Shown: piece after piece, positions 1-16,398 of the stretch
Layout: every line of letters starts with the position of its first letter
Position numbering within the stretch: position 1 is the first letter of the stretch
NCBI GenBank assembly: GCA_022749935.1
Contig: JAKIWQ010000001.1
Location: 1 to 64,000, forward strand
Direction of reading: 5' to 3'
Length of the DNA stretch: 64,000 nucleotides
DNA from: Thermoplasmata archaeon
Lineage (GTDB): Archaea > Thermoplasmatota > Thermoplasmata > Lutacidiplasmatales > UBA184
Made by a program: the position numbers and the translations under genes
Notes under the pieces: generated by a model
Seen by the model: only the letters and a program-made list of their open reading frames with translations
What the model was told of the DNA's origin: nothing
The model's database searches: none

Positions 1-1
1 C

Positions 2-517
2 GGGTTCTCGGGGACGACGGTCATCTACAATGCGACGTGGTTGTTCCAGGGAGGCCAGTGGACGCAGTTGGCCCTCCCGGGTCCGGACCCGTTGCGGAAC
101 CCGAGCCTGGTCTACGATGCGGCGGCGAATGCGAGCATCCTCTTCGGGGGGTTCGACGGAGTGAGCGGAGGGCCCTCCAATGCGACCTGGTCGTTCGCGG
201 GAGGCGCGTGGACGCTACTCACACCATCCGCCAGCCCACCGGCGCGATTCGCGAGCGGGGCGACCTACGACCCGGTGACGGGGGAGATCGTGCTGTTCGG
301 CGGGGTCACCTACCAGTTCTCGGCCAGCAACTACGCGTTGGACGATACGTGGACGTATGTCAACGGAACGTGGGTCAATGTGACGGGGATCTCCGCCACG
401 GCGCCGAGCCCTAGGGCGGCGGAGCGATTGGTATGGGATGCGGCGGACGGGTATGGGGTCCTGTTCGGCGGTCAGTCGAACGGGGTCCGCTACTCGGACA
501 CTTGGACCGTCTCCTAG
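2..517 (+). CDS. Kelch-repeat surface protein, C-terminal part (5' end outside window)
   Basis: The frame is open from the first bases of the window to TAG at 515-517, so this is the last ~171 residues of a longer protein; the ORF-track start at 41 is an internal TTG. The sequence repeats a Kelch-like unit: a glycine-rich strand such as ILFGGF, VLFGGV or VLFGGQ, followed by a tryptophan strand (TWSFAGG, DTWTYVNG, DTWTVS). Such units build beta-propeller blades. Several N-x-S/T sequons (NATW, NGTW, NVT) fit an extracellular glycosylated protein. No C-terminal membrane anchor is present; the chain ends right after the last blade. The ligand cannot be read from the sequence. Confidence 0.8.
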   Translation, partial: GFSGTTVIYNATWLFQGGQWTQLALPGPDPLRNPSLVYDAAANASILFGGFDGVSGGPSNATWSFAGGAWTLLTPSASPPARFASGATYDPVTGEIVLFGGVTYQFSASNYALDDTWTYVNGTWVNVTGISATAPSPRAAERLVWDAADGYGVLFGGQSNGVRYSDTWTVS

Positions 518-596
518 AGGCCGGGAACGCGGAAGCGTCGGCGGTCGAGGTGCGACCGACCGGACCCGACCGTCGGGGACCTCGCCGGCGCGACTC

Positions 597-603
597 GTTA
601 TCC
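597..603 (+). promoter_or_regulatory. TATA-like box for the GT2 gene
   Basis: GTTATCC lies 24-30 nt before the ATG at 627, the usual archaeal TATA-to-start distance for a leaderless transcript. The box is weak. Confidence 0.35.
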
Positions 604-626
604 GCCCTCAGCCTGCTCCCCGTCGG

Positions 627-1526: not shown

Positions 1527-1917
1527 CGATCGGAGGATCGTCGGAGGAGGGCGGACGCGGCCGGATCGGGGCTGCCTAGCTCGCTCCCCCTGGATCATTC
1601 CGGTTGAGTGCGCGAGGCGGGTCGCCCAGTTGCCGGCCCCCGAGGAAGGATCACCCGGCTCCTCCTAGAGGGAAACACTTCGGTCCGTTGACCAAAGCGA
1701 ATAGTACCTGACCTGGTCTGCGAACCTACCCACGGAGCGAGATCGGCGGTTCCGCTCCCGGAATCGGTCAGGAACGAGCTTGAGGGACGCCCGTGGGACC
1801 CAGCCACGTTGGGCACGGTTCCCGGTCGTGGGCCCCGGCCTCGAAGGCGCCGAATTCCGACGCTCTGGATCTGCCTCGCCCGAGGGAAACAGGGGTCCCG
1901 TGCAAGATCCGAGTCAG
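1527..1917. other. Convergent intergenic region, no gene seen
   Basis: This 391 bp lies between the 3' ends of the GT2 gene and the adenylyltransferase-like gene. The ORFs listed here (1595..1921, 1780..2034 and others) are arginine/proline-rich and look like high-GC shadow frames. I see no tRNA and no clear hairpin terminator. Confidence 0.5.
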
Positions 1918-2775
1918 TCACAACCCCGTGGAATCCAGCAGGCGGTCGAGGTACATCGACATCCCCGCCCGGTCCTGGATCGGAGCACGGAATCGGAGAG
2001 CCTGCGCTACTTCATCGCTCAGCCAGAGGAATAGGGTCCGGTGTCCGCGGAGAGAATCCGCGATCGACTTCGCTTCATATCCAGCTACGGTCTCCGAAAA
2101 ATCTCGAACGGCCCGCGGGTCGGCCCAACGCTCGAAGAATCGCGCACCGTGCCAGAGGTCGCGGCCGCTCGGACCGTGAACGAGCGCATGCCAGCGCGCG
2201 GTTCGGACCAGGAGCATTCGGAGGTAGCCGTTGGTCGCCTCCAGGGCCGTGAGCAACTCTCCTCGGCGGAGCTTCTTCGCCGTCCAAATGAGGTGAAACC
2301 AGTAGTCGTTCACCAGGTTGGAGAAATCCGCCCACGTCGGTGGGACCGGGAGTGCCTCCTCTCCGGGCACGACTAGGTCGGAAGAGTCTTTGTTGACCAG
2401 CGTACGGAAACCCCGCTGGAGCACCTTGGCCGCCCGGGCGTCGGCCCCCACCAGTCCGACAAAACCTACCGGAAATACGGCGAAATCGACGTCCTGCCCG
2501 TCCTGGAAGAGCACCCGACGCTCCTCTCCCGAGTCCAGCGCGTTCCCTTCCGTGTGCGAGGTCCAGTACAATCCGAGACCACTGATCCAGCCCTCGTCCC
2601 GCAAGACCCGGTCGGGGTCGCGTGCGAAGACCGCAACGTCGATGTCCGAGAACGAGTCCGCCGGCACTTCCTTCCGTGCCTGTGAACCTACGACCAGGGC
2701 CAGGCGAATGTTCGCGTCATTCTCAGCCCAACGTTGGAGGCGGGCGATCCAGGAGGTCGCCGACGAGGGTCGCAT
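1918..2775 (-). CDS. Aminoglycoside 6-adenylyltransferase-like nucleotidyltransferase
   Basis: A 285-residue protein close in length to the streptomycin (AadE/ANT(6)) adenylyltransferase family. The nucleotidyltransferase signature is intact: GSQARKE followed by FSDIDVAVF supplies the G-S plus two metal-binding aspartates around residues 31-50, and the later DVDFAVF gives the third acidic strand. The C-terminal half (NDYWFHLIWTAKK and following) is helical, as in the family. In resistance enzymes AMP is moved from ATP to an aminoglycoside; in an archaeon the real substrate may differ, so resistance is not claimed. The gene stands alone, with a TATA-like box giving a leaderless start. Confidence 0.75.
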   Translation of the reverse strand: MRPSSATSWIARLQRWAENDANIRLALVVGSQARKEVPADSFSDIDVAVFARDPDRVLRDEGWISGLGLYWTSHTEGNALDSGEERRVLFQDGQDVDFAVFPVGFVGLVGADARAAKVLQRGFRTLVNKDSSDLVVPGEEALPVPPTWADFSNLVNDYWFHLIWTAKKLRRGELLTALEATNGYLRMLLVRTARWHALVHGPSGRDLWHGARFFERWADPRAVRDFSETVAGYEAKSIADSLRGHRTLFLWLSDEVAQALRFRAPIQDRAGMSMYLDRLLDSTGL

Positions 2776-2799
2776 GGTGACGCGACGGGCCCCTCGGTC

Positions 2800-2807
2800 A
2801 TAAACTT
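2800..2807 (-). promoter_or_regulatory. TATA-like box for the adenylyltransferase-like gene
   Basis: Reading the minus strand, AGTTTATG is centred about 28 nt before the ATG at 2775, consistent with a leaderless archaeal transcript. Confidence 0.45.
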
Positions 2808-2953
2808 TCGAGCACCCTCCTTCGACAAAGTACTCGCACGGTACGGGCGATGGGTGCGCATCCGTACCGCGTTGCCTCTCCGACGTGGCCGCCGCGCCGG
2901 GGGTCCGAACCGACCCACCGGTCGTCCCGGTCCGGTGTCTCGGCCGTGTCCGC

Positions 2954-3514
2954 TCAGGGGAGTCCGGCGCCCGTCCGCAGCGCTTGCACCTTGCGATGAA
3001 TCCCGATCGAACGGGCGACCAGGAGACCCGCGCTCAAGGAGAACAGCGCATCGATGACGCCGAGCGCGATCTGCTGTTGGACGGGAGGGTACCCGCCCGG
3101 GTTACTCCCGAACCCGAGCGCGCTAGGGAACAAGACCAGCGCCAGGGCCAACCGGAGGACGAAGGCCCCGAGAAACAACGCAGCGAGCGAGAAGCCGATC
3201 TGGTACGACACGGCTCCCGACGGGCCGCGCGTCACTCGCGTCATCCGCTCGGCGACGTCGGTAAAGGTCAGTGAGGTGACGATCAGGATCGCGACGTCCA
3301 GCGCGATCAAGTACGGCAGGGACCACGGTGTCAGGAGGATCGACTCGAGTTCGCTGACGCCCCAAAGTACGAGGATCAGAATGGGGAGGAAGATGAGTCG
3401 GGCGCTCGAGTACGCGACACCCTGCGTCATCGCGTACGAACGACGTACGATCAGAAGGACGATCACGACCTGAATGAAGACCGCTGTCAGCTCGGAGGAA
3501 GTTAGACCGGTCAC
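2954..3514 (-). CDS. Multi-pass membrane protein, CcdC/DUF1453-like
   Basis: I recognise no assigned function. From the GTG at 3514 the product is 186 residues with about five hydrophobic segments: an N-terminal helix ending before RRSYA, a helix around IFLPILILVLWGV, one at LIALDVAILIVTSL, one at LAALFLGAFVLRLALALVLF, and a last one near ALFSLSAGLLVAR. The order and the short polar loops resemble CcdC/DUF1453-type proteins, but this is a weak resemblance. The ORF track starts at 3580; the extra 22 residues are proline-rich and precede the first helix, so the internal GTG looks more likely. The C-terminus is short and basic. Confidence 0.5.
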   Translation of the reverse strand: MTGLTSSELTAVFIQVVIVLLIVRRSYAMTQGVAYSSARLIFLPILILVLWGVSELESILLTPWSLPYLIALDVAILIVTSLTFTDVAERMTRVTRGPSGAVSYQIGFSLAALFLGAFVLRLALALVLFPSALGFGSNPGGYPPVQQQIALGVIDALFSLSAGLLVARSIGIHRKVQALRTGAGLP

Positions 3515-3788
3515 TCTCGGACTCTGGGGCAGCGCAGCGGGGATGGGGTGGCAGGTAATGACACCTCTGCGAACCGGCAATGCGTGGGTCGGAAAATGCC
3601 GGTCATGGTTCGGAAGGTCGGTCGCACCCAGGTCGCCGGTGGTATTCCTTTCCGAATCTACGGCCCATGAACCGGAGCCCCACGGCCGTGGTACCTGTGG
3701 GGGACCCCGTCCGAAGGGTGCCCGTGGAGACGGGGCCCATCCACGACCTGCTCGGAGGGGTTCGATCGACCCACTCCGCGCGAAAGGG

Positions 3789-4244
3789 CTACCGGCGGTC
3801 GTCGCTCGATGGTCGAAGGGCAGGCCAAAAAGCGCCGATCATCAGTGCGTACGTGACGAATAAGGGGGACATCGCCACGACGATCGGACCGACCGAGGCG
3901 ATGAGAGCCACCCAATTGGTGACAAATTCTGTCAAGAGCTGGACGGCCAGATCGCCGACGACCAGGCCGGCGACCGTTGCGACGCCCAGGGACCAGGTGA
4001 ACCCACCCCAGCCGAGTGTGCTACACCACGGCGTGCCCACGTGTCGCGCCTCGTTCTTCAGGCCGTTGAAAAAGTTCCCGAACGCGAGGACGACCACACC
4101 TCCGACCGGCAACGCGATCCAGAAAGGGGCCGCCCCAGACCCTCCACCCCCCGTTGCAATGCTAAGAGCGCCGGTACCCGCGGTACCTCCGACCCAGAAC
4201 AGAACGCCGAGCCATGCCCACCCACGCGTGGATGGGATCGGCAT
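3789..4244 (-). CDS. Small hydrophobic membrane protein next to the IS left end
   Basis: Starting at ATG 4244 this gives about 151 residues with four hydrophobic stretches (around WLGVLFWVGG, FWIALPVGGVVVLAF, TWSLGVATVAGLVVG, and VTNWVALIASVGPIVVAM). No family is recognised. The ORF-track version begins at 4310, but its first ~20 residues are encoded inside the IS630 element (left end at 4249). The element therefore abuts the start codon: either it landed in the promoter or it removed the original 5' end. Expression of this gene is doubtful for that reason. Confidence 0.45.
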   Translation of the reverse strand: MPIPSTRGWAWLGVLFWVGGTAGTGALSIATGGGGSGAAPFWIALPVGGVVVLAFGNFFNGLKNEARHVGTPWCSTLGWGGFTWSLGVATVAGLVVGDLAVQLLTEFVTNWVALIASVGPIVVAMSPLFVTYALMIGAFWPALRPSSDDRR

Positions 4245-4248
4245 CCTA

Positions 4249-4270
4249 GTGCCGCTTCTAGCCAGGTAGT
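4249..4270 (+). repeat. IS630 left terminal inverted repeat
   Basis: GTGCCGCTTCTAGCCAGG... matches the reverse complement of 5392-5413 at 18 of 22 positions, with the first ten identical; it is preceded by TA. Confidence 0.8.
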
Positions 4271-4294
4271 TCGACATCCCGACCGAAAGAGCTA

Positions 4295-5416
4295 GTGCCG
4301 GGGAGCGCATGCTCCCCGAGCGTGGTGCGCCGCGTTCGATCGATCTCCAACGAGGAAGGGACGAAGCTCGCCCGACTCTGCCGCCACCCCAGCGATGCCA
4401 TCGAGCTCCACCGAGCGATGGTGATCCTCTCCAGTGCCCAGGGGTTCACTCCGCCCTACATCGCCCGACTCGTGGGCTACTCCCCCGACTGGGTTCGGAC
4501 CCTCATTCGAGAGTTCAACCTCCACGGGTTCAAGATGCTCAAGCCGAACTGGAAGGCCGGGGGGAACTGGAAGTTCACTCAGGAGCAGAAGGACCAACTG
4601 GTGGCGCTCGCCACTCGCCGGCCGAGGGACCTCGGCCTCCCCTACTCCCAGTGGTCCCTTTCACGACTGAGGGACGAGGCGAGGAACCAGCGTATCGTCG
4701 ACTCGATCTCGATCGAGTGGCTTCGCGTCGTGCTCGACGAGGCGGACATGAGTCACCAGTCGATCAAGAGCTGGAAGCAGTCCAGTGACCCCAAGTTCGA
4801 GGAGAAACGGAAGCGGATCGACCGGCTCACTCACAAGAAACACAACCCTCCGGTCGTGCTGAGCATGGACGAGATCGGTCCAATCTCCCTTCAGCCCCAT
4901 GGAGGTCAGGGGTGGTTCCGGTCGGGCCACCCCGAGCGGATCCCCTCCACCTACAAGCGACTCAAGGGCACTCGGTATCTCTACCTCACCCTCAACGTCT
5001 ACCACCAACAGCTGAGCGGTCGATTGTATCGGCACAAGGGAGGAGAGCCGTGGCTGGATTACGTCCAGCGAGAGGTAGAGCGGTACCCGAAGGACGAGGG
5101 GATCTACCTAATCCAGGACAACCTGAGCGCCCACTGGACCCCCGAAGTGCGAGAGTGGGCGAGGAACAACCGAGTGACCTTGGTGGCCTCGGCGACCCAG
5201 GCCAGTTGGATGAACCCGGTGGAGAGCCACGCAGGCGACCTCCAGAAACTCGTGCTGGCCGGGTCGAACTATAGCTCGTGGACCGAGGTTCGGAGAGAGG
5301 TAGCCCGAGCGATCTCCTTTCGGAACCGAGAGCGCGGGCTACGCAAGAAGCGGTTCCGCGACGCTCAGATGGGCAAATGGAAAATCCACCGACGACCTAT
5401 CTGGAAGCGGCACTAG
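4295..5416 (+). CDS. IS630-family transposase
   Basis: A 373-residue DDE transposase. The N-terminal part carries a helix-turn-helix (AIELHRAMVILSSAQGF, then PPYIARLVGYSPDWVRTLI) typical of IS630 DNA-binding domains. The catalytic triad is visible as VVLSMDEIG (D), YLIQDNLSAHW (D) and MNPVESHAG (E), in the expected order and spacing. Translation may start at GTG 4295 or at GTG 4322, since the conserved region only begins after the latter. The stop codon TAG at 5414-5416 is made from the flanking target-site TA plus one host base, so the reading frame ends only because of the insertion site. The gene cuts and joins the element DNA in cis. Confidence 0.9.
   Translation: MPGSACSPSVVRRVRSISNEEGTKLARLCRHPSDAIELHRAMVILSSAQGFTPPYIARLVGYSPDWVRTLIREFNLHGFKMLKPNWKAGGNWKFTQEQKDQLVALATRRPRDLGLPYSQWSLSRLRDEARNQRIVDSISIEWLRVVLDEADMSHQSIKSWKQSSDPKFEEKRKRIDRLTHKKHNPPVVLSMDEIGPISLQPHGGQGWFRSGHPERIPSTYKRLKGTRYLYLTLNVYHQQLSGRLYRHKGGEPWLDYVQREVERYPKDEGIYLIQDNLSAHWTPEVREWARNNRVTLVASATQASWMNPVESHAGDLQKLVLAGSNYSSWTEVRREVARAISFRNRERGLRKKRFRDAQMGKWKIHRRPIWKRH
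4300..4317 (+). promoter_or_regulatory. Hairpin inside the IS left end
   Basis: GGGGAGC-gcat-GCTCCCC forms a 7-bp stem with a 4-nt loop just after the GTG at 4295 and before the GTG at 4322. By analogy with other insertion sequences it may damp read-through expression from outside promoters; that role is inferred. Confidence 0.5.
5392..5413 (-). repeat. IS630 right terminal inverted repeat
   Basis: The reverse complement begins GTGCCGCTTC and pairs with the left repeat; it is followed by the TA target duplicate at 5414-5415. Confidence 0.8.
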
Positions 5417-5427
5417 CTGGTTCGACC

Positions 5428-8400
5428 ATGTGGAAGTCAAGGAGATCTTGCGGACGCGTCCATCCGAGTGGAAGGAACGTGTGGTGCTGTGAAGTGACGC
5501 GCACACGGAGTCGCGCCCAAGGTAATCGACGGCGCCCAACTGCGGTTGTCATAGTGGCCGTGCTCGCATTCTCTGTGGTGTGGGTGACGGGGCAGGGACA
5601 ACCCTTAGGCCCGATTGCGCCCGCAGGGGGGCCCGCCTCAATCCTAGGCGAATCCTTCGCAACTAGAGGGTCTCTCCCGACGACCGATTTTGATCGGAGC
5701 CACTCCGCACTCACCCGGTGGATCCCCACTTCTACCGCCTACACGCTCGATCCACTCAATGCAACCCTCTTGCAAGGCGAAATCAATCCACCCTCTCCGG
5801 GGTACTCGCAGGCCGTACTGGATGTTCCATCGCTCGGGGAGTTTGTCGTAGGAGACTCCGCGGGAGATTTCGCCTATGTCATCAATGCGAGCTCAGGCCA
5901 CGAAATTCGAGCCATAAACCTCGGTCCTCCGAGCTTGCAGTTTTACGGAAGCGACCCGATCGGTTTCGCATTCAATCCGGCCAAAGGGCTGCTCTACGTT
6001 TCGCTTCTCGGTGACAGTTCGGTTGCGTTTGTCAATCTCTCTTCGGGGAATGTGCTAATGAACCTCGCCCTCCCCGGTCATCCGTACGGGGTCGTCTTCG
6101 ATGTAGCGGACAATCAACTCTACACGACTAACGACACCGGGGTGTTCGCTCTTAACGGGACGACGGGTGCGGAGATCGGGTTCTTGGCAATCCATTGGGG
6201 TGTCACGCCCATAGTGATCGATCCATTAACGGACACCCTCCTAACCGCCGACAGCGGAAACAGCACGGTTTACGTGGTCAACATTTCAACATTTAGTGTG
6301 ACCACAAGATTCTACACGTCGCATAACGGTGGTGGCGTTGACCCAACCGCGTTGATTTTCGACCCTTATACGAAGCAGGTTTACACGGCCGATCAGGACG
6401 GAAATGTCAGCGTAATCAATGCCGAGACTTACCAACTCAATGCCACAACACCTGAGATAAATCTAGGCGGGTATCCCAACTCACTCGCCATCAACCCCGT
6501 CCGTCACGAAATCTACGTCAGTAGTTGCCATCAGTTCGGGTTCCGGTCCTGCGTATTCTACGATTCCAACGATTCCGTGGCGAGCTACACCCTTCCCAAC
6601 TCATGGCCGGGATGGCTCGCCTACGACGCCCCGACCAAGCACTTGTTGATCGACAACAACAACGACACGCTTTACCTTTTCAACGGCTCGAACGACCTAC
6701 AGGTCGGTTTCGTGCCGATGGTCACCTCGTACCTAGGGGGCGTACTCGACCCCTCAAACGGGCGCGAATACGTCGCGACGCCAGCGCTCGGAGGGGTATG
6801 CGTGCTACCAGGGACGGTCACGGTCTTGATGCCTGGCCCGGAGCCTTCCTTCGTCGCGACGGTACCGGTCGGGGACGGGCCGAGCCAGGTGGCATACGAC
6901 TCTGCCGACGACCGAGTCTTCGTCACGAATTACTGCTCAAACTCAGTGACAGTGATCGACCCTACGAATGACTCCATACTCCGGGCTAGTATCCCAGTAG
7001 GCTCCGAACCATACGGAGTCGCCTACGACTCTCTCAACGACACGATCTGGATTGCGAACTACAACTCACGGAACCTGACCGTACTGAATGGATCGACGCT
7101 CGCGACTGTTCGGACAGTCACCCTCCCGCAAGGGTATCCATATGACTTGGCAATCGATTCGATTTCCCAGTCGGTTTTCGTCTCTGACATTTTAGGCAAC
7201 TCTGTCACTGTGGTGAATTCGACCACCTACACCATCTCAGTTTCATCGATTCCCGTCGGATCCAGCCCCCAGGGGTTGCTTTACGATCCCCAGAACGGAG
7301 ACGTCTATGTCGCGAATGGTGGCTCCAACAACGTCACAGTACTGAATGCGGCAAACCGGAGTGTGGCCGGGTCCATCCGTACGGCAGGGGGGACCACAGC
7401 TCTAGCCCTCGACCCGATCGACCACCTTGTGTTTGCCACGGACGCGGGGGGAAGTCGAATCGTCGTCATCGACGCCCTTGACAATCAGGCGGAATTTCCG
7501 TCTCTTCCGGCCTCGGGAGAGCCGCAGGGCGTTGTGTACGTCCCGAACGACCACCAGTTGGACGTGCTGAATTTCGGTGCCAATGCGATCAACATTCTTG
7601 CCAACGTCCCGACGCTTTCAAACTTCACAGCGATCCCAGCTCAAACTGAAGTGGGCGACCCGTTCGCATTCTCTGTCGCGGCTTCGAACGGCACTCCTCC
7701 CTACGCATTCTCGTACTCTGGATTACCGCCTGGCTGCGCATCGGCCGACAGTATCGTCCTCGAGTGCACACCAACCCTCCCCGGCCACTTCGTTGTGACA
7801 CTGACCGCGGTTGACTCGGCGGGCTACTTCTGGTCCACCAGTGTCAACGTGTCGGTATGGACCCACCTAGGGTCCGGAAACCTCAGCCTGACGCCCTCGA
7901 CCATCGACTTGGGGATGACCTCGGACCTAGTCCTCACAGGCGCGGGTGGAGTTCCTCCGCTCAACTACTCGTACCAGGGACTCCCGACCGGTTGCGTTTC
8001 GTCCAACAATTCCACGTTGAGCTGCAAGCCCACGGAGGCGGGCATTTTCACTGTGGTTGGGACGGTGACAGACAATCTGGGAGTGGTCACCGTCGCTGGG
8101 ACGGATCTCGTTGTCGATCCGCTTCCTCAGGTGGAAGCTTTCGTCGCCAACCCTTCGACTGTTCCTGTGAACTCGTCCTTCCTCCTCCTCGCGAGTGTGT
8201 CTGGGGGCACCCCCCCTTTCAACTACTCGTACGACGGCCTCCCGCCCGGCTGCCACTCCTCTGACTCCACCGAACTGGAGTGCGTACCGACCGTTCCGGG
8301 GAGTTACACAGTCAGGCTCACTGCGAGCGACTCCCTCGGGGAGAGTGTGAACGGGAGCCTACCGCTCATCATATTGTCCTCACCGGTCGCGACGCCCCCT

Positions 8401-8832
8401 CCCCAGATCATCGCTTTCTTTGCAGACCCGTCGACGGTGACCATCGGAACTAATGTCACTCTCTACGTTATCCACACGGGTGGGACCCCTTCCTATTCCC
8501 TGGGTTGGGCGGGGCTTCCAGGTGGTTGTACGGCGAACACTCAAACATCCTCCACCATCACATGCCGTCCCACCCAGGTCGGGAACTTCACGCTTCGAGT
8601 CAATCTAACTGACTCGCTCGGTCGATCGGTCGAGGACCGGACATCCTTGACAGTGCTTCCGGTCGAGGTTAACGCGAAGGTTCCCCCTTCTGCCTCGGTG
8701 GTTTCAGAACTGACCCTCGCGTACGTTGCGTTTGCAGCCGCTGCCATTGGGGGCGTAGGCGGGGCGGTAGTTGCGGGTCTTGTGTCCCGGCGCAAACCAG
8801 AACCGGCGAAATCCGTGCCTCCCCCTAGATAG
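5428..8832 (+). CDS. Surface-anchored YVTN beta-propeller / Ig-like protein, paralogue 1
   Basis: About 1134 residues. After a basic leader (RAQGNRRRP) comes a signal helix (AVVIVAVLAFSVVW). The following ~650 residues carry repeated YVTN-type propeller units (VSVINAETY, VTVIDPTND, LTVLNGSTL, VTVVNSTTY) with motifs such as PVGSEPYGVAYD. Then come four Ig-like (He_PIG-type) units of the form PP..YSY.GLP.GC...C.PT..G.F.V, each with two cysteines that could pair. A C-terminal helix (YVAFAAAAIGGVGGAVVAGL) followed by RRK anchors it. Many N-x-S/T sequons imply glycosylation. Start ATG 5428 lies only 15 bp beyond the IS element; GTG 5494 is an alternative. The ORF track overextends it into the transposase. 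Close paralogue at 12309..15704. Function probably adhesion or surface sensing, not shown. Confidence 0.85.
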   Translation: MWKSRRSCGRVHPSGRNVWCCEVTRTRSRAQGNRRRPTAVVIVAVLAFSVVWVTGQGQPLGPIAPAGGPASILGESFATRGSLPTTDFDRSHSALTRWIPTSTAYTLDPLNATLLQGEINPPSPGYSQAVLDVPSLGEFVVGDSAGDFAYVINASSGHEIRAINLGPPSLQFYGSDPIGFAFNPAKGLLYVSLLGDSSVAFVNLSSGNVLMNLALPGHPYGVVFDVADNQLYTTNDTGVFALNGTTGAEIGFLAIHWGVTPIVIDPLTDTLLTADSGNSTVYVVNISTFSVTTRFYTSHNGGGVDPTALIFDPYTKQVYTADQDGNVSVINAETYQLNATTPEINLGGYPNSLAINPVRHEIYVSSCHQFGFRSCVFYDSNDSVASYTLPNSWPGWLAYDAPTKHLLIDNNNDTLYLFNGSNDLQVGFVPMVTSYLGGVLDPSNGREYVATPALGGVCVLPGTVTVLMPGPEPSFVATVPVGDGPSQVAYDSADDRVFVTNYCSNSVTVIDPTNDSILRASIPVGSEPYGVAYDSLNDTIWIANYNSRNLTVLNGSTLATVRTVTLPQGYPYDLAIDSISQSVFVSDILGNSVTVVNSTTYTISVSSIPVGSSPQGLLYDPQNGDVYVANGGSNNVTVLNAANRSVAGSIRTAGGTTALALDPIDHLVFATDAGGSRIVVIDALDNQAEFPSLPASGEPQGVVYVPNDHQLDVLNFGANAINILANVPTLSNFTAIPAQTEVGDPFAFSVAASNGTPPYAFSYSGLPPGCASADSIVLECTPTLPGHFVVTLTAVDSAGYFWSTSVNVSVWTHLGSGNLSLTPSTIDLGMTSDLVLTGAGGVPPLNYSYQGLPTGCVSSNNSTLSCKPTEAGIFTVVGTVTDNLGVVTVAGTDLVVDPLPQVEAFVANPSTVPVNSSFLLLASVSGGTPPFNYSYDGLPPGCHSSDSTELECVPTVPGSYTVRLTASDSLGESVNGSLPLIILSSPVATPPPQIIAFFADPSTVTIGTNVTLYVIHTGGTPSYSLGWAGLPGGCTANTQTSSTITCRPTQVGNFTLRVNLTDSLGRSVEDRTSLTVLPVEVNAKVPPSASVVSELTLAYVAFAAAAIGGVGGAVVAGLVSRRKPEPAKSVPPPR

Positions 8833-9014
8833 GGAAGCGGCCCTTATCGACTCTCAGACCGGCCCCGCATACTCACGAGGACGTGGGCAACGTCCTCGCC
8901 GTCGACCAACCCTCCTGAGACTCTCCTGGGCGACTGGCGTACGGCGGCGTGGTTCAAATCGCGGTTCGGGTTTTCGGAAGGACCTTCCCCAGGACGGATT
9001 GCGTGGGCGTCGGG

Positions 9015-9409
9015 TCACGATTCACATCAAGACGCCAATTGACGAATCCGTCAAGAAGAAGGCTGAGAGACGGAGCGTCGACCTGCGGTGTCGGAAAAGT
9101 CCTGCGCGGCGTCTAGGGATTCCTGAGGTGGGCGGCCCACTGCCTAACTGACGTGGTCCAGGCCTTCATGGCCACCGGGTGTTCGTGCGAATCTTCTGTT
9201 GTAGTCGGAGAGATGGGGCTGGGCCCGTCGTTCAAAGCGGGCAGTGGCGGAGGCGGTGGCCGGTGCCGCGTGTCCCGCCCCGTCCGGGTCACAACGGCCC
9301 ATCGGTTCCCGAAGGAAATGCCAGGTTTGGCGGGCGACAGATTCACCTCCTCGGGGGGTTCGAATACTCGCGACGGAACATTTCCACGAGGTGATTAGCG
9401 GGGCATGGA
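9015..9409 (+). repeat. Left copy of ~0.4 kb downstream repeat
   Basis: Direct repeat of about 15888..16286. Shared blocks include GATTCACATCA, ATTGACGAATCCGTCAAG, AAGGAAATGCCAGGT, GGTTCGAATACTCGC and a 24-bp identical end (9386-9409) that contains the 3' end of the initiator tRNA. The blocks between have diverged, so the duplication is not recent. Confidence 0.75.
9039..9054. repeat. Conserved inverted repeat TTGACG-aatc-CGTCAA (copy 1)
   Basis: A perfect 6-bp inverted repeat with a 4-nt spacer. It sits in a block conserved with 15914-15929, while neighbouring bases have drifted, which suggests a retained protein- or RNA-level signal. Confidence 0.6.
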
Positions 9410-9430
9410 GTCGAACCCCCGGGGGGTTCG
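9386..9430 (-). pseudogene. Fragment of the initiator tRNA 3' end
   Basis: ACGAGGTGATTAGCGGGGCA plus TGGA is identical to 16263-16286, which covers the acceptor 3' strand and the last T-arm bases of the intact initiator tRNA plus DNA downstream of it. Beyond 9409 the T-stem no longer pairs and the rest of the tRNA is missing, so this is a truncated relic. Confidence 0.65.
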
Positions 9431-9610
9431 AATATCGAGAAAAGTGGGGGACCAGCAGTCCTGGAGGCCATCACCTCTCGTCTTGGGTTCGGGCAATGAC
9501 ACGACTGGGATACCTTCCAAGAAGCAGCGATAACAATTCGACCCGGGCTAGTTCACTCGATTCGCCTGGGAACTTCCCACGAGGGCTCCCGGAGCCGTGC
9601 GGAGGCCCGC

Positions 9611-9979
9611 GTGGCGTTCCCGGACGCCGACAACGACGAGGAGGACGGGGTCGACTCTCGGCGGTTCAGCCTCATGGAGATCACGAGCGGCCTCCCAGAC
9701 GACTCGCGGGAGGCGGATGAGCGCGCTGCGGTGCGGAACCTACCCGACCTGCGCGCTCGCGTGAAGGCGGCCCGCCCCCTGGTCGCGAGCAGCCCGGGCG
9801 TGGCCGATACGCTCTCGCGCGACTGGCGCCATGCCGCGTGGTTCTACGCGCGATTCGGGATCACCGAGGGGCAGTTCAGAGGCAAGGGAGCCCTTGGGAC
9901 TCTCGACCCACTGGCTGAGAAGGGTGCCCTTCGAGGAATCGAAGAAACCTCGAAATCGGGTGTGGTCCACTGGAGGTAG
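9611..9979 (+). pseudogene. Relic or small hypothetical ORF with WF-ARFGI-EGQ motif
   Basis: The 122-residue frame (GTG start) has an acidic N-terminus (DADNDEEDG) and a motif DWRHAAWFYARFGITEGQ. The same motif recurs in broken form upstream (about 8920-8985, GDWRTAAWF..RFGFSEG) and downstream (about 15810-15865, RRKAAWFSVRYGIMEGQ). I do not recognise the family. Three related tails in different states of decay suggest remnants of a multiplied gene rather than a working protein, although this middle copy is still an open frame. No promoter is obvious. Confidence 0.4.
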
Positions 9980-10133
9980 GCGAACTGCCCAAGGGCCGCG
10001 GATGGGCCCCTGGCCGCACGCGTATGATATCGGGGAAAGTGCGTCTAACCCGTTCGTGTAATCGTTCTCGCCTGTTTTGCGCTCGAGCGAACAGATTTGA
10101 GGGGGAGAGGCATGCTCCCGGTTGGATGTGCCG

Positions 10134-12272
10134 ATGGCGGTAAGTCGCCGGAGGAGACAGGCCACGTCTCGTACCCTTTGCCTTGTTGTCCTGATTGTTG
10201 TAGTGGCGTCTTCCGTAGCAATGGGCAACACGACTCGTAAGGGCTCGCTTGCCGCCCCAACATCCCCTTCGTCACTTCTTCGGGCTGAGGACAACAACTC
10301 GTCATCCTCACTGCTGTTACCCTCTTTATCCATCTCCTCATTTGGAACTTGGCCGATGTACGATCAAAACCCCTTCCGCACAGGCGATCAGGGCATGGAG
10401 CGAACCCTAGCCCGGACGAACGCCAGTCTGCTCACAATTTCTCCCCACTTCCCATTCGCCCCCTCCTACCTTCGGGCGGTCGCCGGCTCAGTTGCCGTGG
10501 CGAACGGCACGGCGTACTTCCCTTCCGCCGGCGGGAACCTCGTAGCATTGAACGTGACGACAGGGACTATTCATGGGAGTAGCTCATGGGTTGCCAACAC
10601 CACTCACTTCGGGATTATCAACTGCTCCGGATCGCCAAGCGGGCTAGTTTCTACCCCGGCCATTTGGGGGAATCTTGCCATCGTAGGAACCGGGGGTGCA
10701 CTCGGAGCCCAGGGGTACGGATGGGTACGCGCATACAACGTTACCGGCCCGAACCCAGGCACGGCCCGGTGGTCCACAAACCTAACGGGGAGTGTCGGCG
10801 GTTCCTGGGCAGGTGCTTACACCTGGTCGAGCCCGGTGATCGCGGGTGGTGATGCCTACATTGGGCTCGCTAGTGGTTGTGACGCTCCTCTTGTGCAGGG
10901 CGCTCTCTTTCAGCTCAATGCCACGACCGGAAACATCCTCAACGTTGCACATATGGTCTCAACCGGCCAGACGGGCGCTGGAATCTGGAGCTCGCCGACT
11001 GTGGACCTTAAGAACCACACAGTCTGGGTAACCACCGGCAATGAGAACAAGCACCAGATCTACCAACAATATGCCCGTTCTCTCATCGCGTTAAATACCA
11101 GCACCTTCCAAGTCATCGGGCACGCCCAGGAAGGGACCCCTGGGACCGACCAAGACTTTGGAGCCGGCCCGACCCTGTTCTCGACTTCATCGGGGGTTCC
11201 TATGGTTGTCGCGGTCAACAAGAACGATTCTGCCTATGCCTTCGCCCGGAGCAACTTCACGGGCAACATGTCGCCGAACGGAGGGGTGAAGGGATGGGTG
11301 TGGGAGAAGTACATCGGCGGACCAACGACCCCGGGGGCGATCGCACCCGCTGCATTTGGAGACAGCCAACTTTACTTCGCTGGGGGGCCGGAAGGGTCAC
11401 AGGCTGGCAGCGTATGGGCCCTCGCCCCGAGCGGGGCCACAATCTGGCATGTCGGCGTGGGGGGTTACATCCGGGCCGGGGTAACGTATGCGGACGGGCT
11501 GGTCATCGCCGCAGCAATCGGTTCTTCGAACAACGCCTCTTCTGTTATCATTCTGAACGCTACCAACGGCAGGCTGATCGCTGAGTACAACGCGAGCGGG
11601 CAGGTCAACGGGGAGCCGGCAGTGGCGGACGGCCGCGTCTACTTCGGAACGGCGTGGGGAAACGCCGGTGGGCCGGACTTCTCGGCTCCCGGCTCGCTCT
11701 ACGCTCTTGAGATCCCCATCCACGCTCAACCCAATGCATACCCGGGGACCGTGCCTACTCCGGTGGTTGTGTTCGACGGCCTCGGTATCGGCGGGTCCCC
11801 TCCTTATTCCTGCGTATGGATCTTTGGCCCTGGGGCTAGGTCGAATCTCTGTGGCTTGGTGAGCTATTCGTACACCAGCACCGGGGTTTACGAAGCCAGC
11901 CTCTGGGTGAATGATTCGGTAAGCGAATCGTCCAGGTGGATCTATACTATTCAGGTCGTTGACAACGGGGGATGCCTCTTAGGGCATCCGTGTTCTAATT
12001 GGATTCTCGTTGGGAACTTCACGACGGGCGGCTGTTACGCTCAGCCCCCCTCGCTATTTTGTCCAGTGAATGGGCTGCTAGACTTCGCTTCGTACAGTTC
12101 GGGGGGGACGCCCCCCTATACGTATCTCTGGAACTTCGGAGACAGGACACAATCGGAACTCCCCACCCCGATTCACCAGTACTTGGAACCGGGTGAATAC
12201 ACGGTTACGCTGACCCTTACTGACAAGAATCACCTACAGGCCTCGACACAGTTCGTGGTCACGGCGACCTGA
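10134..12272 (+). CDS. Secreted PQQ-type beta-propeller protein with PKD domains
   Basis: About 712 residues from ATG 10134 (the ORF track uses a TTG 12 nt earlier). A twin-basic leader (SRRRRQ) and a signal helix (LCLVVLIVVVASSVA) direct export. Residues ~75-530 contain propeller units typical of PQQ-binding-like repeats (GNLVALNVTTG, GALFQLNATTG, GSVWALAPSG, SVIILNATNG), opening with the WPMYDQNPFRTG strand common in such proteins. Two PKD-like domains follow; the last is clear (GGTPPYTYLWNFGD ... TVTLTLTD). There is no C-terminal anchor, so it is probably released or held by partners. No catalytic dehydrogenase residues can be claimed. It ends 36 bp before paralogue 2 and may share its transcript. 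Confidence 0.8.
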   Translation: MAVSRRRRQATSRTLCLVVLIVVVASSVAMGNTTRKGSLAAPTSPSSLLRAEDNNSSSSLLLPSLSISSFGTWPMYDQNPFRTGDQGMERTLARTNASLLTISPHFPFAPSYLRAVAGSVAVANGTAYFPSAGGNLVALNVTTGTIHGSSSWVANTTHFGIINCSGSPSGLVSTPAIWGNLAIVGTGGALGAQGYGWVRAYNVTGPNPGTARWSTNLTGSVGGSWAGAYTWSSPVIAGGDAYIGLASGCDAPLVQGALFQLNATTGNILNVAHMVSTGQTGAGIWSSPTVDLKNHTVWVTTGNENKHQIYQQYARSLIALNTSTFQVIGHAQEGTPGTDQDFGAGPTLFSTSSGVPMVVAVNKNDSAYAFARSNFTGNMSPNGGVKGWVWEKYIGGPTTPGAIAPAAFGDSQLYFAGGPEGSQAGSVWALAPSGATIWHVGVGGYIRAGVTYADGLVIAAAIGSSNNASSVIILNATNGRLIAEYNASGQVNGEPAVADGRVYFGTAWGNAGGPDFSAPGSLYALEIPIHAQPNAYPGTVPTPVVVFDGLGIGGSPPYSCVWIFGPGARSNLCGLVSYSYTSTGVYEASLWVNDSVSESSRWIYTIQVVDNGGCLLGHPCSNWILVGNFTTGGCYAQPPSLFCPVNGLLDFASYSSGGTPPYTYLWNFGDRTQSELPTPIHQYLEPGEYTVTLTLTDKNHLQASTQFVVTAT

Positions 12273-12308
12273 GTCGAAGGCCCCACACGACGCAGGGCCG
12301 CGTGGGAA

Positions 12309-15300
12309 ATGTCGATATCCGACATCGGTGGACCGCATGGGAGAAGGAACGGACGTCGCGGAGGACGGTCATTTGATGCGTGTCGAACCTGGCGCGTACG
12401 TGGTACGGGGTGGGTACAAGCCATCCAGTCGACCCTTTTGATCATCCTTCTGGTTTCCTCCATCCCTTGGGGGACGATTCACTCACGGCCCTTTGATGTC
12501 CCCTCTAGCGGAGAGCGATCAGTCTCGACCTCGGCCGAGGTCGCGGCTGTTGCTCCGACTCACTCGGTACATGCTGAAGGGCGTACCGAGGTGACAAACT
12601 CGCGGTGGGCCCCTACCACAACCGCATACACCTTAGACCCGCTCAACAGGACTTTGATCCAGGGAGCGTTCAGCCCTCCCGCTCCTGGGTATCCGTGGGG
12701 CGCGCTCGACATCCCGTCACTTGGTGAAGTCGTTCTGGGCGACAGCCAAGGCGGCGATGTGTACCTGATAAATGCCACTAACGGCGGTGAAGTACGTGCA
12801 TTGCCTGTGGGCAACACGCCGGACGCATTCGCCTATGATCCGACCACAAGAATTCTGTACTGCACCCTGGCAGGAGGCGAAGATGACTCGATTTCGTTCG
12901 TGAATCTGTCCACCGGGGAGGTCGAAAGGACGTTGACAGGGATCCACAACGCCGGAGACTTGCTGTACGATTCATCGAACAATCTACTCTATGTAACGAA
13001 CTGGAGCGGACTGCTTGAATTGAATGGGTCGACAGGCTCGGTCGAATCCTACCTACCCATTCATTGGGGGGTCAAACCGCTCGTCCTCGACCCTCTCACT
13101 GGGTCTCTGTTCGTAGCAGATGCTGGCAATGGCACAGTCTACATAATCAACACGAGCCTGAATCAGGTAAAATCGAATCTGACGATCCATAACAGTGGCG
13201 GCGGCTCGGCGGTTGCGATGCTCTTCGATCCGCACAGCCGGCAGATCTACACGGCCGACTACGGAGACGGAAACGTGTCTGTTATCGACGCTACTTCTAT
13301 GAAGGTAAACCGGACCACCCCCGAAATCAATTTAGGAGGCGTGCTCACCTCCCTTGCCCTGAACCCCACGACCCATGAGGTGTATGTCAGTAACTGCGCC
13401 CCGCCCCCCCTCAACTTTCGAACCTGTATCATCTACGACTCAAATGACACTCTCGCGTCCCAGACACTCCCGGACTCCTTTCCGGCCTTCCTCGCGTACG
13501 ACTCGGCCTCGAGTCACCTGCGGGTCATCATCAACTACGAGTCGAGCTATGGGTTCAGCGGCTCGGACGACCGCCAAGTTGGTTTCGTATCGATCGTTAC
13601 CTCCTACCTCGGGGGGGCGTTGGATTCAGCGAACGGCCTCGAATACATTGCGACGCCGGCGCTGGGGGGGGTTTGCGTGCTCCCGGGGACGATCACCGTC
13701 CTGGATCCAAGCCCGAAACCTTCCTTCGTCGCTTCTCTGCCAGTCGGAGATGGTCCCAGCCAGGTGGCCTACGACTCAGCCGACGGTCGAATCTTTGTCA
13801 CGAATTACTGCTCGAATTCGGTGAGCGTGATTGACGCGACGAACGATTCGATAGTCCGCCTTGATCTCCCGGTCGGCTCCGAACCGTACGGGATCACCTT
13901 CGACTCTCTCAAGGACACAATTTGGATTGCGGACTACAATTCACAGAACCTGACAGTGCTCAACGGGTCCACGCTTGCGACGGTCCGGACGGTCACCTTG
14001 CCGCTAGCATATCCGTACGGTCTGGCAATCGACCCAACCGCACACTCGGTGTTCGTCTCGGATATTGTCGGCAACGCGGTGACCGTAGTGAATTCGACCA
14101 CCTATAGCATTTCAACCCTGATGATCCCAGTCGGATCTAGCCCCCAAGGGATCTTTTACGACCCCCAGAATGGAAATGTGTATGTTGCGAATGGTGGCTC
14201 GGACAACATCACGGTAATCAATGGCACGAACGATAGTGTAGTCGAGTCAATCGCGACCGCCGGAGGGACGACGGCCCTCGCCCTTGATCCGATCGACCAC
14301 CTGATCCTCGGCACCAACGCGGGGGGAAGTCGGATCATCGTGCTCGACGCACTCACAAACCTAGCGGAGTTCTCGAGTCTTCCAGCCTCCGGGAACCCGC
14401 AGGGGATCGTCTACGTCCCAACGGACCACCAGGTTGACGTGTTCAACTTCGGAGCCAGCGCCATCAACATTCTGGCCGACGCTCCGACCCTTTCCAACTT
14501 CACTGCGAACCCAGCCCAATCCGAGGTTGGGACCCTGCTTACCTTCTTCGCTATCGCCGCCAACGGCACTCCTCCCTACGCCTTCTCGTACTCCGGACTT
14601 CCCCCCGGATGCGCATCGACCGACAGCGTCGTCATCGCATGCACGCCCACCCTCCCGGGCCAGTTCGTTGTGACCCTCACCGTCGTTGACTCGGCGAGCT
14701 ACTTCTGGTCCGCCACTCTCAAAGTATCTGTGTGGACCCACTTAGGGTCCGGAGCCCTGAGCGTCAGACCCCCGACGATCGACTTGGGGATGACGACCAC
14801 GTTCGCCCTCACCGGGGCGGGTGGAGTACCGCCGGTCACTTACGCCTACCAGGGCCTCCCGTCCGGCTGCTCCTCCTCCGACAGTCCCTTCGTGAACTGC
14901 ACCCCTGCGGGGGTGGGCAGTTTCGTTGTGGTTGGGTTCGTGACGGACAATCTCGGTGTGGTTTCTGTCGCTGCGACTGGTCTTAGGGTGAATCCGCCGC
15001 CTCTGGTCGAGGCGTTCGTCAATACCCCCACTACCATTCTGGTGAACTCGTCCGTCCTCCTCCTCGCAAGTGTCTCTGGGGGTACTGCCCCCTTCAGCTA
15101 CTCGTATCGCGGGCTCCCACCCGGATGCTCCTCCACCGACTCCACCGCACTGGGCTGCACGCCTACCGTTCCGGGAAACTTCACCGTCACCCTCACCGCG
15201 AGTGATTCCCTAGGGCGAAGTGTGAACGCGAGCCTACCAATCACCGTCTTGCCCCCGCCGGTCGCGACACTTCCTCCACAGATCTCGGCCTTCTTTGCGG

Positions 15301-15704
15301 ACCCATCGACGGTGACGATCGGAACTAATGTCACTTTCTACGTGCTGCACACAGGTGGGACTCCCTCCTATACCCTGAGTTGGACGGGGCTCCCCGCTGC
15401 TTGTCTGGTGAACAATCAAACCGCCTCCACCCTAACATGCCGCCCCACTCAAGTCGGTAGTTTCTCGGTCCGGGTCAATCTGACCGATGCGCTCGGTCGA
15501 TCAGTGGAGAGCCGGACCTCCCTAACGGTGCTTGCGGCCGAGCCAAACGCCACGGTTCCCCCTGCCCCACCCGAAATCTTGGGATTGACTCTCGTCTACC
15601 TTGGGGTGATAGCCGCAGTTATCGGGGGCGTCGTGGGGGCAATCGCGACGCTTCTCATCTCGCGTGGCAGACAGAAGCCAAGGAATGATACCATGTCGAC
15701 GTAG
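12309..15704 (+). CDS. Surface-anchored YVTN beta-propeller / Ig-like protein, paralogue 2
   Basis: A 1131-residue protein colinear with 5428..8832 throughout: signal helix (STLLIILLVSSIPW), YVTN-type propeller units (PVGSEPYGITFD, LTVLNGSTLATVRTV, PVGSSPQGIFYD), four cysteine-paired Ig-like units (for example GGVPPVTYAYQGLPSGC), and a C-terminal helix (LVYLGVIAAVIGGVVGAIATLL) before SRGRQK. Long stretches are nearly identical to paralogue 1 (DPIDHL, GGTTALALD, PTLSNFTA), while the N-terminal ~70 residues differ, so the leader was replaced or diverged fast. Sequon density suggests N-glycosylation. The gene follows the PQQ/PKD protein by 36 bp, which suggests an operon of extracellular proteins. 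Confidence 0.85.
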   Translation: MSISDIGGPHGRRNGRRGGRSFDACRTWRVRGTGWVQAIQSTLLIILLVSSIPWGTIHSRPFDVPSSGERSVSTSAEVAAVAPTHSVHAEGRTEVTNSRWAPTTTAYTLDPLNRTLIQGAFSPPAPGYPWGALDIPSLGEVVLGDSQGGDVYLINATNGGEVRALPVGNTPDAFAYDPTTRILYCTLAGGEDDSISFVNLSTGEVERTLTGIHNAGDLLYDSSNNLLYVTNWSGLLELNGSTGSVESYLPIHWGVKPLVLDPLTGSLFVADAGNGTVYIINTSLNQVKSNLTIHNSGGGSAVAMLFDPHSRQIYTADYGDGNVSVIDATSMKVNRTTPEINLGGVLTSLALNPTTHEVYVSNCAPPPLNFRTCIIYDSNDTLASQTLPDSFPAFLAYDSASSHLRVIINYESSYGFSGSDDRQVGFVSIVTSYLGGALDSANGLEYIATPALGGVCVLPGTITVLDPSPKPSFVASLPVGDGPSQVAYDSADGRIFVTNYCSNSVSVIDATNDSIVRLDLPVGSEPYGITFDSLKDTIWIADYNSQNLTVLNGSTLATVRTVTLPLAYPYGLAIDPTAHSVFVSDIVGNAVTVVNSTTYSISTLMIPVGSSPQGIFYDPQNGNVYVANGGSDNITVINGTNDSVVESIATAGGTTALALDPIDHLILGTNAGGSRIIVLDALTNLAEFSSLPASGNPQGIVYVPTDHQVDVFNFGASAINILADAPTLSNFTANPAQSEVGTLLTFFAIAANGTPPYAFSYSGLPPGCASTDSVVIACTPTLPGQFVVTLTVVDSASYFWSATLKVSVWTHLGSGALSVRPPTIDLGMTTTFALTGAGGVPPVTYAYQGLPSGCSSSDSPFVNCTPAGVGSFVVVGFVTDNLGVVSVAATGLRVNPPPLVEAFVNTPTTILVNSSVLLLASVSGGTAPFSYSYRGLPPGCSSTDSTALGCTPTVPGNFTVTLTASDSLGRSVNASLPITVLPPPVATLPPQISAFFADPSTVTIGTNVTFYVLHTGGTPSYTLSWTGLPAACLVNNQTASTLTCRPTQVGSFSVRVNLTDALGRSVESRTSLTVLAAEPNATVPPAPPEILGLTLVYLGVIAAVIGGVVGAIATLLISRGRQKPRNDTMST

Positions 15705-16272
15705 CAGATGCCCGGCCTGTAAAGGCTGGTCAACCGGACTCGGACGTGTAGGCGGCCCGGGTGTAGGCAGCGACCCTCCAAAGTCTGTCCGGACCCCTCG
15801 CGCACGAGCGGCGCAAGGCGGCCTGGTTCTCCGTGCGGTACGGGATTATGGAGGGACAGTACCGAAGAGGGGGTTCCTTCCACGTCGGATCCCGATTCAC
15901 ATCATGACGCCGATTGACGAATCCGTCAAGAGAACGGCGGAAAGCCAGAGCCTAGATTGCCGGTGTGGGAAGACCCCCTTCACGAGGCTCATGGATTCCT
16001 GACTTCGGAGGCCCTTGGCCTGATAGCCGTAGTCCACGCCTCCATGGTCACCTGGGGTCTTGTGCCACTCTGCTATCATGGTCGGAAAGATTGGTGTGGC
16101 CCCGTCCGTCCAAACAGGCTGTGACGTAGGTCGTGGCCGGTGCCACTGGCTCCCGCCCCGTGCGGGTTCTACAGGCCTGACGGTTCCCTAAGGAAATGCC
16201 AGGTCTAGCGGGCGTCGGATTCACCTCCTCGAGGGTTCGAATACTCGCAACGGGGCGATTCTACGAGGTGAT
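15705..16272. other. Gene-poor region between paralogue 2 and the initiator tRNA
   Basis: No intact gene. It contains the third relic of the WF.VRYGI.EGQ motif (about 15810-15865), the second copy of the TTGACG/CGTCAA inverted repeat, and DNA related to 9015-9409. Confidence 0.6.
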
Positions 16273-16286
16273 TAGCGGGGCATGGA
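15888..16286 (+). repeat. Right copy of ~0.4 kb downstream repeat
   Basis: Direct repeat partner of 9015..9409, offset by about 6.87 kb; its last 14 bp lie in the initiator tRNA gene. Confidence 0.75.
15914..15929. repeat. Conserved inverted repeat TTGACG-aatc-CGTCAA (copy 2)
   Basis: Identical stem and spacer to 9039-9054. Confidence 0.6.
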
Positions 16287-16375
16287 TTTGAACCATGGAT
16301 CTACGGGTTATGAGCCCGTCGGGATTTCAGGACGGCCGGGATTCCCGGACGTTTTCCTGACTACCCTACCCCGCT
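16273..16375 (-). tRNA. Initiator tRNA-Met (CAT) with a ~29-nt D-loop insertion
   Basis: The 103-nt gene folds as follows: acceptor AGCGGGG/CCCCGCT with an A1:U72 pair, D-stem GGG/CCC, anticodon stem ACGGG/CCCGT with loop CTCATAA (anticodon CAT), and T-arm CATGG-TTCAAAT-CCATG, discriminator A. A1:U72 and three consecutive G:C pairs in the anticodon stem mark archaeal initiators. Without the insertion the tRNA aligns position by position with my memory of archaeal initiator tRNAs at about 74-75 nt. The insertion in the D-loop is described separately. CCA is not encoded. A TATA-like element stands 24-31 nt upstream. Confidence 0.85.
16325..16353 (-). other. Probable non-canonical intron in initiator tRNA D-loop
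   Basis: In the tRNA sense strand, exon bases TCAGG pair with intron bases CCTGA; a 3-nt bulge AAA follows on the 5' side and AAT on the 3' side, then the D-stem GGG/CCC. Inside, ACG/CGT and CCGGG/CCCGG stack under an AAT loop. This is a bulge-helix-bulge-like fold (relaxed, 5-bp central helix with an extra internal loop), the substrate type of archaeal tRNA splicing endonuclease. Cutting after the second base of each bulge removes 29 nt. Exact ends are ambiguous because of the A-runs. Confidence 0.65.
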
Positions 16376-16398
16376 GCGCGGCGCCCATGGAGGGCTCC

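Follow-up and report, generated by a model that had tools for sequence, protein, structure and literature searches.

How can two related, very large surface-protein genes come to stand one behind the other beside an initiator tRNA gene, when only one of the two copies keeps the tRNA? The window analysed here, i.e. the whole stretch of 64,000 nucleotides from a Thermoplasmata archaeon, carries two such genes, A and B, in its left part (Table 1). Their stop codons, at 8832 and 15704, are 6,872 bp apart, and an identical block of 24 nt, ACGAGGTGATTAGCGGGGCATGGA, recurs after 6,877 bp. Both spacings had been read correctly in the preliminary description, as had the place of the PQQ/PKD gene between the copies and the extent of the homology, which was said to cover the surface gene and a stretch after it and to end inside the initiator tRNA. 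Two blocks of about 4 kb (5428-9417 and about 12.33-16.294 kb) match at an offset of 6,875-6,878 with about 74% nucleotide identity over most of their length; a single BLASTN alignment joins 6679-9417 to 13554-16294 (2,771 bp, 73.8% identity), and the 5′ portions of the genes align at about 59-72% identity. The homology breaks at 9417 and 16294, within the T-arm of the minus-strand tRNA with the anticodon CAT. The proposed 6.87-kb period of a duplicated module holds as a spacing (6.88 kb) and fails as the length of a repeated unit, since nothing upstream of copy A (left of 5428) corresponds to the sequence 9418-12308, which comprises a small-gene fragment and the PQQ/PKD gene. The whole inter-repeat unit is therefore not present twice, as it would be after a simple tandem duplication.

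Table 1. Features of the duplicated surface-gene locus at tRNA-iMet (positions in the window).
Feature	Position	Strand	Remarks
Right part of the ~21.7-kb insert	1..16272		insert between the UspA/Zn-ribbon genes (ancestral; contig C23) and tRNA-iMet
IS630-type element, intact	4247..5415	+	DDE_3 transposase 4295-5416; TA target duplication; gene A follows after 11 bp
Surface gene A	5428..8832	+	YVTN/NHL beta-propeller and PKD-type domains; 5428 is the first ATG past the IS (the ORF caller places the start at 5278, inside the IS)
Decayed small-gene remnant past copy A	8878..9003	+	same small gene as the family of 9611..9979
Trailer X, left	9008..9395		non-coding; ~76% identical to right copy
Stem-loop and GGGTTCGAATA(C) motif	9356..9366	+	further copies at 9424-9434 and 16233-16243
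24-nt block, left	9386..9409		identical to 16263-16286
Displaced tRNA-iMet 3′ fragment	9396..9417	-	22 nt, T-loop to 3′ end, 20/22 identical
Palindrome TCGAACCCCCGGGGGGTTCGA	9411..9431		spans the homology break point
Small-gene-family fragment	9611..9979	+	elsewhere the family sits downstream of YVTN surface genes
PQQ_2/PKD gene	10122..12272	+	in G093 and G029, too, a homologue immediately precedes the surface gene
Surface gene B	12309..15704	+	family of A; 63% amino-acid identity to A
Decayed small-gene remnant past copy B	15704..15880	+	same small gene; 2 internal stops
Trailer X, right	15883..16272		abuts tRNA 3′ end
24-nt block, right	16263..16286		identical to 9386-9409
Intact initiator tRNA (CAT), docking gene	16273..16375	-	~26-nt D-loop insertion/intron; body nearly invariant in 20 genomes

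The tRNA gene at the right end is a genuine tRNA-iMet; ARAGORN run without introns misses it because of the D-loop insertion. As had been claimed, only the right copy keeps the tRNA, and the left one ends in a 22-nt piece of it. With 6 mismatches, the next best match to this fragment in the window belongs to another tRNA. Neither the window nor the flanks of 21 relatives (20 by one count) yielded a further 3′ piece of tRNA-iMet, and there was none comparable in contig C23 or in the genome AcS1-67. Left of 9396, both in the window's own contig (C1) and in the C23 part, nothing matches the fragment with fewer than 7 mismatches; the outer (left) end of the module of gene A and the surroundings of the Zn-ribbon gene likewise yielded no fragment. 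A survey covered 26 tRNAs and 263 kb of sequence downstream of them: the tail of the tRNA (at most 3 mismatches in 20) is repeated four times, each time downstream and in sense orientation, and never antisense or upstream.

What does the locus look like in the relatives? The empty site, which the preliminary description had proposed to look for, exists: 14 congeners have a compact, ancestral arrangement UspA-(Zn-ribbon)-tRNA-iMet. In the present genome about 21.7 kb are inserted there, between the UspA/Zn-ribbon genes on contig C23 and the tRNA; C23 and C1 share an exact end overlap of 11 bp, across which a Kelch reading frame is continuous. The same site carries other insertions in AcS1-67, G028, G012, G032, G019 and G022. 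In AcS1-67, where the tRNA is identical in 103 of 103 positions, the insert is a different one, of 4.7 kb, without surface genes, trailer or fragment. Precise excision of the unit 9396-16294 alone was not seen among the relatives' loci. Nowhere among the genomes examined do both copies occur as independent orthologous loci, the observation against which the proposal had been set; among them, this genome alone has the junction. The comparison of these loci indicates that mobile DNA has docked at tRNA-iMet repeatedly in this Thermoplasmata genus. As to the neighbouring parts, single pairs of PQQ and surface genes occur in congeners at positions away from tRNA-iMet, the small-gene fragment has 87% nucleotide identity to G093 over 9665-9881, and a scan of genome contigs with surface protein B gave no confirmed match.

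Integrases are found at the same tRNA in relatives. In G019, G022 and G032 a divergent tyrosine-recombinase gene begins 33-45 bp past the 3′ end of tRNA-iMet. Nine aligned members of this family share invariant R170, K214, Y301xxR304, H331 and Y339, and the family matches the phrog_1 integrase and, weakly, XerA in searches of PHROGs, NCBIfam and PDB profiles; Pfam gives nothing, and the cut-offs of Pfam and NCBIfam are not reached. Outer att sites for the three elements were not found in the sequence running to the contig ends. Elsewhere in G019 (contig C146), the att core of this integrase family reaches from the T-loop to the tRNA 3′ end and has further copies at about +12.8 and +17.4 kb; between the two outer cores lies a comparable surface-gene cassette, a lone YVTN gene of 978 aa without an integrase, which points away from the tRNA, in contrast to surface gene B. 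The earlier statement that no integrase is visible in the window stands for its left 16.4 kb: a maximum-sensitivity hmmsearch with the family HMM over 1-16400 and over positions 1-6500 of C23 revealed neither an integrase nor a recognisable remnant, and the PF00589 members of this genome are on other contigs.

Between the decayed small gene and the tRNA end, both copies carry the trailer that we call X. No third copy turned up in this genome and no full match among 77 congeners, both of which gave short weak hits only; phages gave none. That it is a decayed integrase gene was ruled out by hmmsearch --max; a coding region is ruled out by indels of 1-2 nt between the copies, which disrupt the frames in the alignment, and Rfam gives no RNA match. 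A tRNA-like fold on the plus strand at 16154-16262 has a long acceptor-like stem in the right copy only and no tRNA call, and is treated as chance. Motifs related to GGGTTCGAATA(C) lie about 12 nt beyond tRNA 3′ ends, ahead of integrase genes. The GTTCRAATAC motifs within X are oriented opposite to those at tRNA-integrase junctions and, in the window, point opposite to the tRNA; the motif is therefore taken as a lead to an element end and not as proof of one.

The phylogeny of the two surface genes is mosaic. Over the N-terminal part (aa 100-410), A groups with the gene of another species, G093, and a grouping of A with B is rejected (AU p about 0.013 for amino acids, 0.0007 for nucleotides). 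Over the C-terminal part (aa 411-1133), A with B is preferred, significantly on codon positions 1+2 (AU p about 0.011-0.015) and not significantly on amino acids (AU p = 0.2). The copies are thus not mutually closest along their whole length.

How, then, was the array formed? The locus suggests that it was built by tRNA-targeting mobile DNA, with the tRNA serving as docking point for surface genes. The account to which we incline, with some reserve, is that two related cassettes without integrase, each made of a PQQ/PKD gene, a YVTN/PKD surface gene, the small gene and trailer X, were stacked head-to-tail at tRNA-iMet through recombination in the T-arm and later partly homogenised by gene conversion. 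The second cassette would have entered between the first one and the tRNA; it would have restored an intact tRNA at the right and left behind the former 3′ end, now the fragment 9396-9417. The likeliest agent would be a tyrosine integrase acting in trans or since lost; recombination through the shared trailer might have served instead. Later gene conversion would have increased the similarity of the C-terminal halves and of the trailers, and the left cassette probably lost its PQQ gene and gained the IS630 insertion. Against this account it is to be noted that trailer X occupies the usual place of the integrase, that the tested insert sequence holds no integrase and cassette A no outer fragment, and that the GTTCRAATAC orientation, the C-terminal amino-acid test and the opposite directions of B and the G019 gene do not fit well.

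The preliminary description had left a choice between a tandem duplication and the integration of an element at the 3′ end of the tRNA. A recent plain tandem duplication is disfavoured, because the inter-copy unit is unrepeated and the N-terminal third does not place A and B as sisters. A more elaborate duplication in situ, in which ordinary recombination or replication template switching copied the surface gene, the trailer and the neighbouring tRNA 3′ end alongside, the PQQ side was later lost at the left and the N-terminus of B was replaced from another paralogue, would need no site-specific integrase. We regard it as rather unlikely, even if the 4-kb homology is collinear with a constant offset, the T-arm and the palindromic junction are plausible break hotspots, the C-terminal parts of A and B group together and no integrase was found in the insert; its difficulties are the sequence unrepeated at the left, the rejected sisterhood in the N-terminal third, a T-loop break that matches the att core known in the genus, and the independent insertions at tRNA-iMet in several relatives.

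Integration at the tRNA 3′ end, in turn, is supported by the compact site in 14 relatives, the differing inserts, the three abutting integrases and a sister element whose att core has the same position, and does not survive as a single event. If one integrative element (9396-16294) had been captured once beside an unrelated older surface gene, there would be a fragment on one side, an intact tRNA on the other, and PQQ and B in between, as observed. This is improbable: the element lacks an integrase, and the second trailer X, absent elsewhere in the genome, contradicts it. The homology runs on for 4 kb left of the fragment and takes in that trailer, so that the left gene cannot be called unrelated. 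Such homology is beyond what one integration could leave; two related insertions at the least, or one insertion together with a duplication, would be needed. Least probable is a chimeric join of two strains' copies of one locus in assembly or binning; the assembly is MAG-like, with 97 contigs, but the copies are merely about 74% identical and both on one contig of 108 kb, the right flank shows synteny with that of relatives, and both the overlap and the reading frame connect the left contig end to C23.

The stacked cassettes share much with the tRNA/tmRNA-anchored genomic islands defined by Islander (PMC4383910): the target tRNA is intact at one end, a displaced 3′ fragment lies in direct orientation at the opposite one, the cargo varies, and relatives show an empty site. 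Unlike those islands, the locus has no integrase gene within, two related modules are stacked, and the outer end of the older, left module has no recognisable fragment. Archaeal pNOB8-type integrases have the pattern R...YxxR...Y (PMC8371274), which is also found in the tRNA-iMet integrases of G019, G022 and G032; as in that type, the genus's tRNA-abutting integrases have invariant R, K, YVLR, H and Y, their gene is kept intact beside the tRNA, and the G019 att core starts in the T-loop, whereas they fall below the Pfam and NCBIfam cut-offs and none is in the window's insert. According to the part of PMC8371274 that concerns tandem integrated archaeal elements (citing Redder et al. 2009), several elements can share a tRNA locus and exchange modules by homologous recombination, giving mosaics. 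The units stacked here resemble these, but are surface-gene cassettes in which no genes for replication or integration can be recognised. A tendency to gain genes beside tRNAs is also reported for the Thermoplasmatales, where 40-50% of recent gene clusters adjoin tRNA genes (PMC2718499); by a word search, that paper makes no mention of tandem copies, and stacked surface-gene cassettes bounded by tRNA fragments do not seem to be described there.

In this poorly known, uncultured Thermoplasmata genus, tRNA-iMet thus appears as a shared insertion hotspot, and this window and G019:C146 are two independent examples of large surface-protein genes between tRNA 3′ cores without an integrase. It might be, although we find this rather doubtful, that surface-protein genes of the genus travel as cassettes that lack an integrase and have tRNA 3′ cores at their borders. 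Resident recombinases that target tRNAs would mobilise them in trans, and they would pile up head-to-tail beside the tRNAs; gene conversion among the stacked genes would there give mosaic surface proteins, in effect a tRNA-anchored archaeal locus of surface variation. If integrase-less cassettes do move in trans, this would explain how very large beta-propeller/PKD surface proteins are swapped and diversified.

The duplicated surface-protein blocks ending in the initiator tRNA (tRNA-iMet), as set out in the preliminary description, are borne out: direct repeats run in register at an offset of 6,875-6,878 nt, and BLASTN aligns 6679-9417 with 13554-16294 as one 2,771-bp segment of 73.8% identity, while the remainder of the two surface-protein genes, A (left) and B (right), aligns more weakly. 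Their proteins are 63% identical, far closer to each other than either is to its more than a dozen other relatives in the genome. Each gene is followed by the decayed remnant of a small gene and then by a non-coding trailer of ~390 bp, which occurs only twice genome-wide. The last 100 bp ahead of the homology end are 86% identical between the blocks. Homology terminates within the minus-strand tRNA (anticodon CAT), of which the left block retains 22 nt that span the T-loop to the 3′ end and differ at 2 positions; the second-best match to this piece in the window has 6 mismatches. An intact IS630-type element with a TA target duplication is found 11 bp ahead of the gene A start. Also present is an uncharacterised small gene family (GLRWDP...WHG / RARVKAARALVA...FGITEGQFR) with no Pfam match, which has many partial copies and is directly 3′ of a YVTN surface gene at several loci.

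Positions of features (window coordinates unless a contig or locus is named)
Feature	Position	Strand	Remark
Streptomycin-adenylyltransferase-like gene	1918-2775	-	PF04439
IS630-type element	4247-5415
Gene A	5428-8832		long secreted YVTN/NHL-propeller + PKD-type protein
Gene B	12309-15704		long secreted YVTN/NHL-propeller + PKD-type protein
Stem-loop + GTTCRAATAC motif	9356, 9424, 16233	+	strand opposite tRNA-iMet
Junction palindrome	9411-9431		perfect
Small gene family	9611-9979; L112 1150-1809; L119, L122, L123
tRNA-iMet	16273-16375	-
PQQ/PKD surface gene	G000:C23 7194-9998 (L134)
Recombinase-family copies, window genome	C12:105374; C38:2-949		beside tRNA-Arg genes
Lone YVTN surface gene	L170 (G019:C146) 13136-17694		bracketed by two tRNA 3′ cores

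ARAGORN overlooks or miscalls tRNA-iMet because of a ~26-nt insertion in its D-loop. A comparison of 20 genomes shows a tRNA body with almost no change, variation being confined to this insertion (~26-30 nt with a variable hairpin, in the window and at loci L070-L089); it is probably a non-canonical tRNA intron, so that tRNA finders overlook the gene or call it wrongly. Of 78 genomes of the genus, 20 were looked at for the tRNA-iMet locus. In all 20 conservation ends at the tRNA 3′ end, and their flanks, searched up to 14 kb, hold no second fragment of it. In 14 of the 20, a distance of 0.1-1.9 kb separates UspA from the tRNA, in most cases with a Zn-ribbon gene between them; UspA stands behind ribosomal protein L10e and, contig reach permitting, PAN ATPase. 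In the window genome the 16.3 kb to the left of tRNA-iMet lack this cluster, which is located close to the beginning of a different contig, C23. Reversed C23 and the start of the window contig overlap by 11 identical bp, and a single Kelch-protein reading frame continues across them; if this join is assumed, the insert from Zn-ribbon gene to tRNA-iMet would be ~21.7 kb. The streptomycin-adenylyltransferase-like gene is within this insert, and a further PQQ/PKD surface gene stands between PAN ATPase and L10e, beside the same ancestral cluster. The closest relative found at the locus, MAG AcS1-67 (tRNA identical at 103/103), has there an unrelated 4.7-kb insert without surface gene, trailer or tRNA fragment, with, judged from its sequence, a putative metal-type regulator and putative ABC-transporter genes. 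The genome G028 has ~8 kb at the locus, and G012 a YVTN surface gene.

How did the two blocks come to stand side by side? A simple tandem duplication expects the segment between the copies also upstream of A, and A and B as sisters throughout. Neither is found, since 9418-12308 has no counterpart left of A and, over residues 100-410, A clusters with G093, the AU test rejecting A+B (p = 0.013 for amino acids, 0.0007 for nucleotides). Over residues 411-1133 A+B is preferred, significantly for codon positions 1+2, not for amino acids. A-B synonymous divergence, saturated across the 5′ half, drops to about 0.6-0.8 across the 3′ half. Together with the 86% identity of the last 100 bp, this mosaic fits two gene lineages that came to lie side by side and have since been homogenised in part. 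An in-situ duplication in which the N-terminal part of B was later replaced would also produce this signal; we hold it to be the less likely course. The PQQ-surface pair, single-copy in G093 and G029 without a tRNA nearby, is an older arrangement.

In three genomes (G019, G022, G032) a same-strand gene begins 33-45 bp beyond the tRNA-iMet 3′ end. Its family is present in 31 of the 78 genomes, mostly abutting 3′ ends of many tRNA kinds (L139-L168), and twice in the window genome. Pfam does not recognize it and no NCBIfam match exceeds the cut-off. R, K, YxxR, H and Y are invariant among nine members, and PHROG integrase models, the P. abyssi recombinase structure 4a8e and, weakly, XerA-type models are matched. 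These are divergent tyrosine recombinases of the pNOB8-type pattern (PMC8371274). The stem-loop with GTTCRAATAC, with only 12 occurrences in 903 kb, sits in most cases some 12 nt beyond a tRNA 3′ end, ahead of an integrase; both trailers have it, and the junction has a shortened copy. The window copies and the palindrome may be old element ends or promoters. On G019:C146, the core (tRNA 3′ piece) from a recombinase-family element, ATCCCAGCACGGGCGTCT, runs from the T-loop to just beyond the tRNA 3′ end, with further copies some 12.8 and 17.4 kb onward (+). The interval that the two outer cores enclose contains one 978-aa YVTN surface gene alone and no integrase. At the same tRNA, a 12.8-kb integrase/D5-helicase/IS66 element precedes the bracketed gene.

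Integration at the tRNA 3′ end, also proposed in the preliminary description, is supported in part. It gains from the displaced tRNA fragment and the compact site in relatives, and loses from two island features missing here, an integrase and an outer fragment; for that reason the locus is described as working like an integrative island and not classed as one. We lean towards surface-gene cassettes, stacked at tRNA-iMet and lacking an integrase, over in-situ duplication. G019:C146 parallels the window independently, with the same core sub-location, cargo of the same kind and, again, no integrase.
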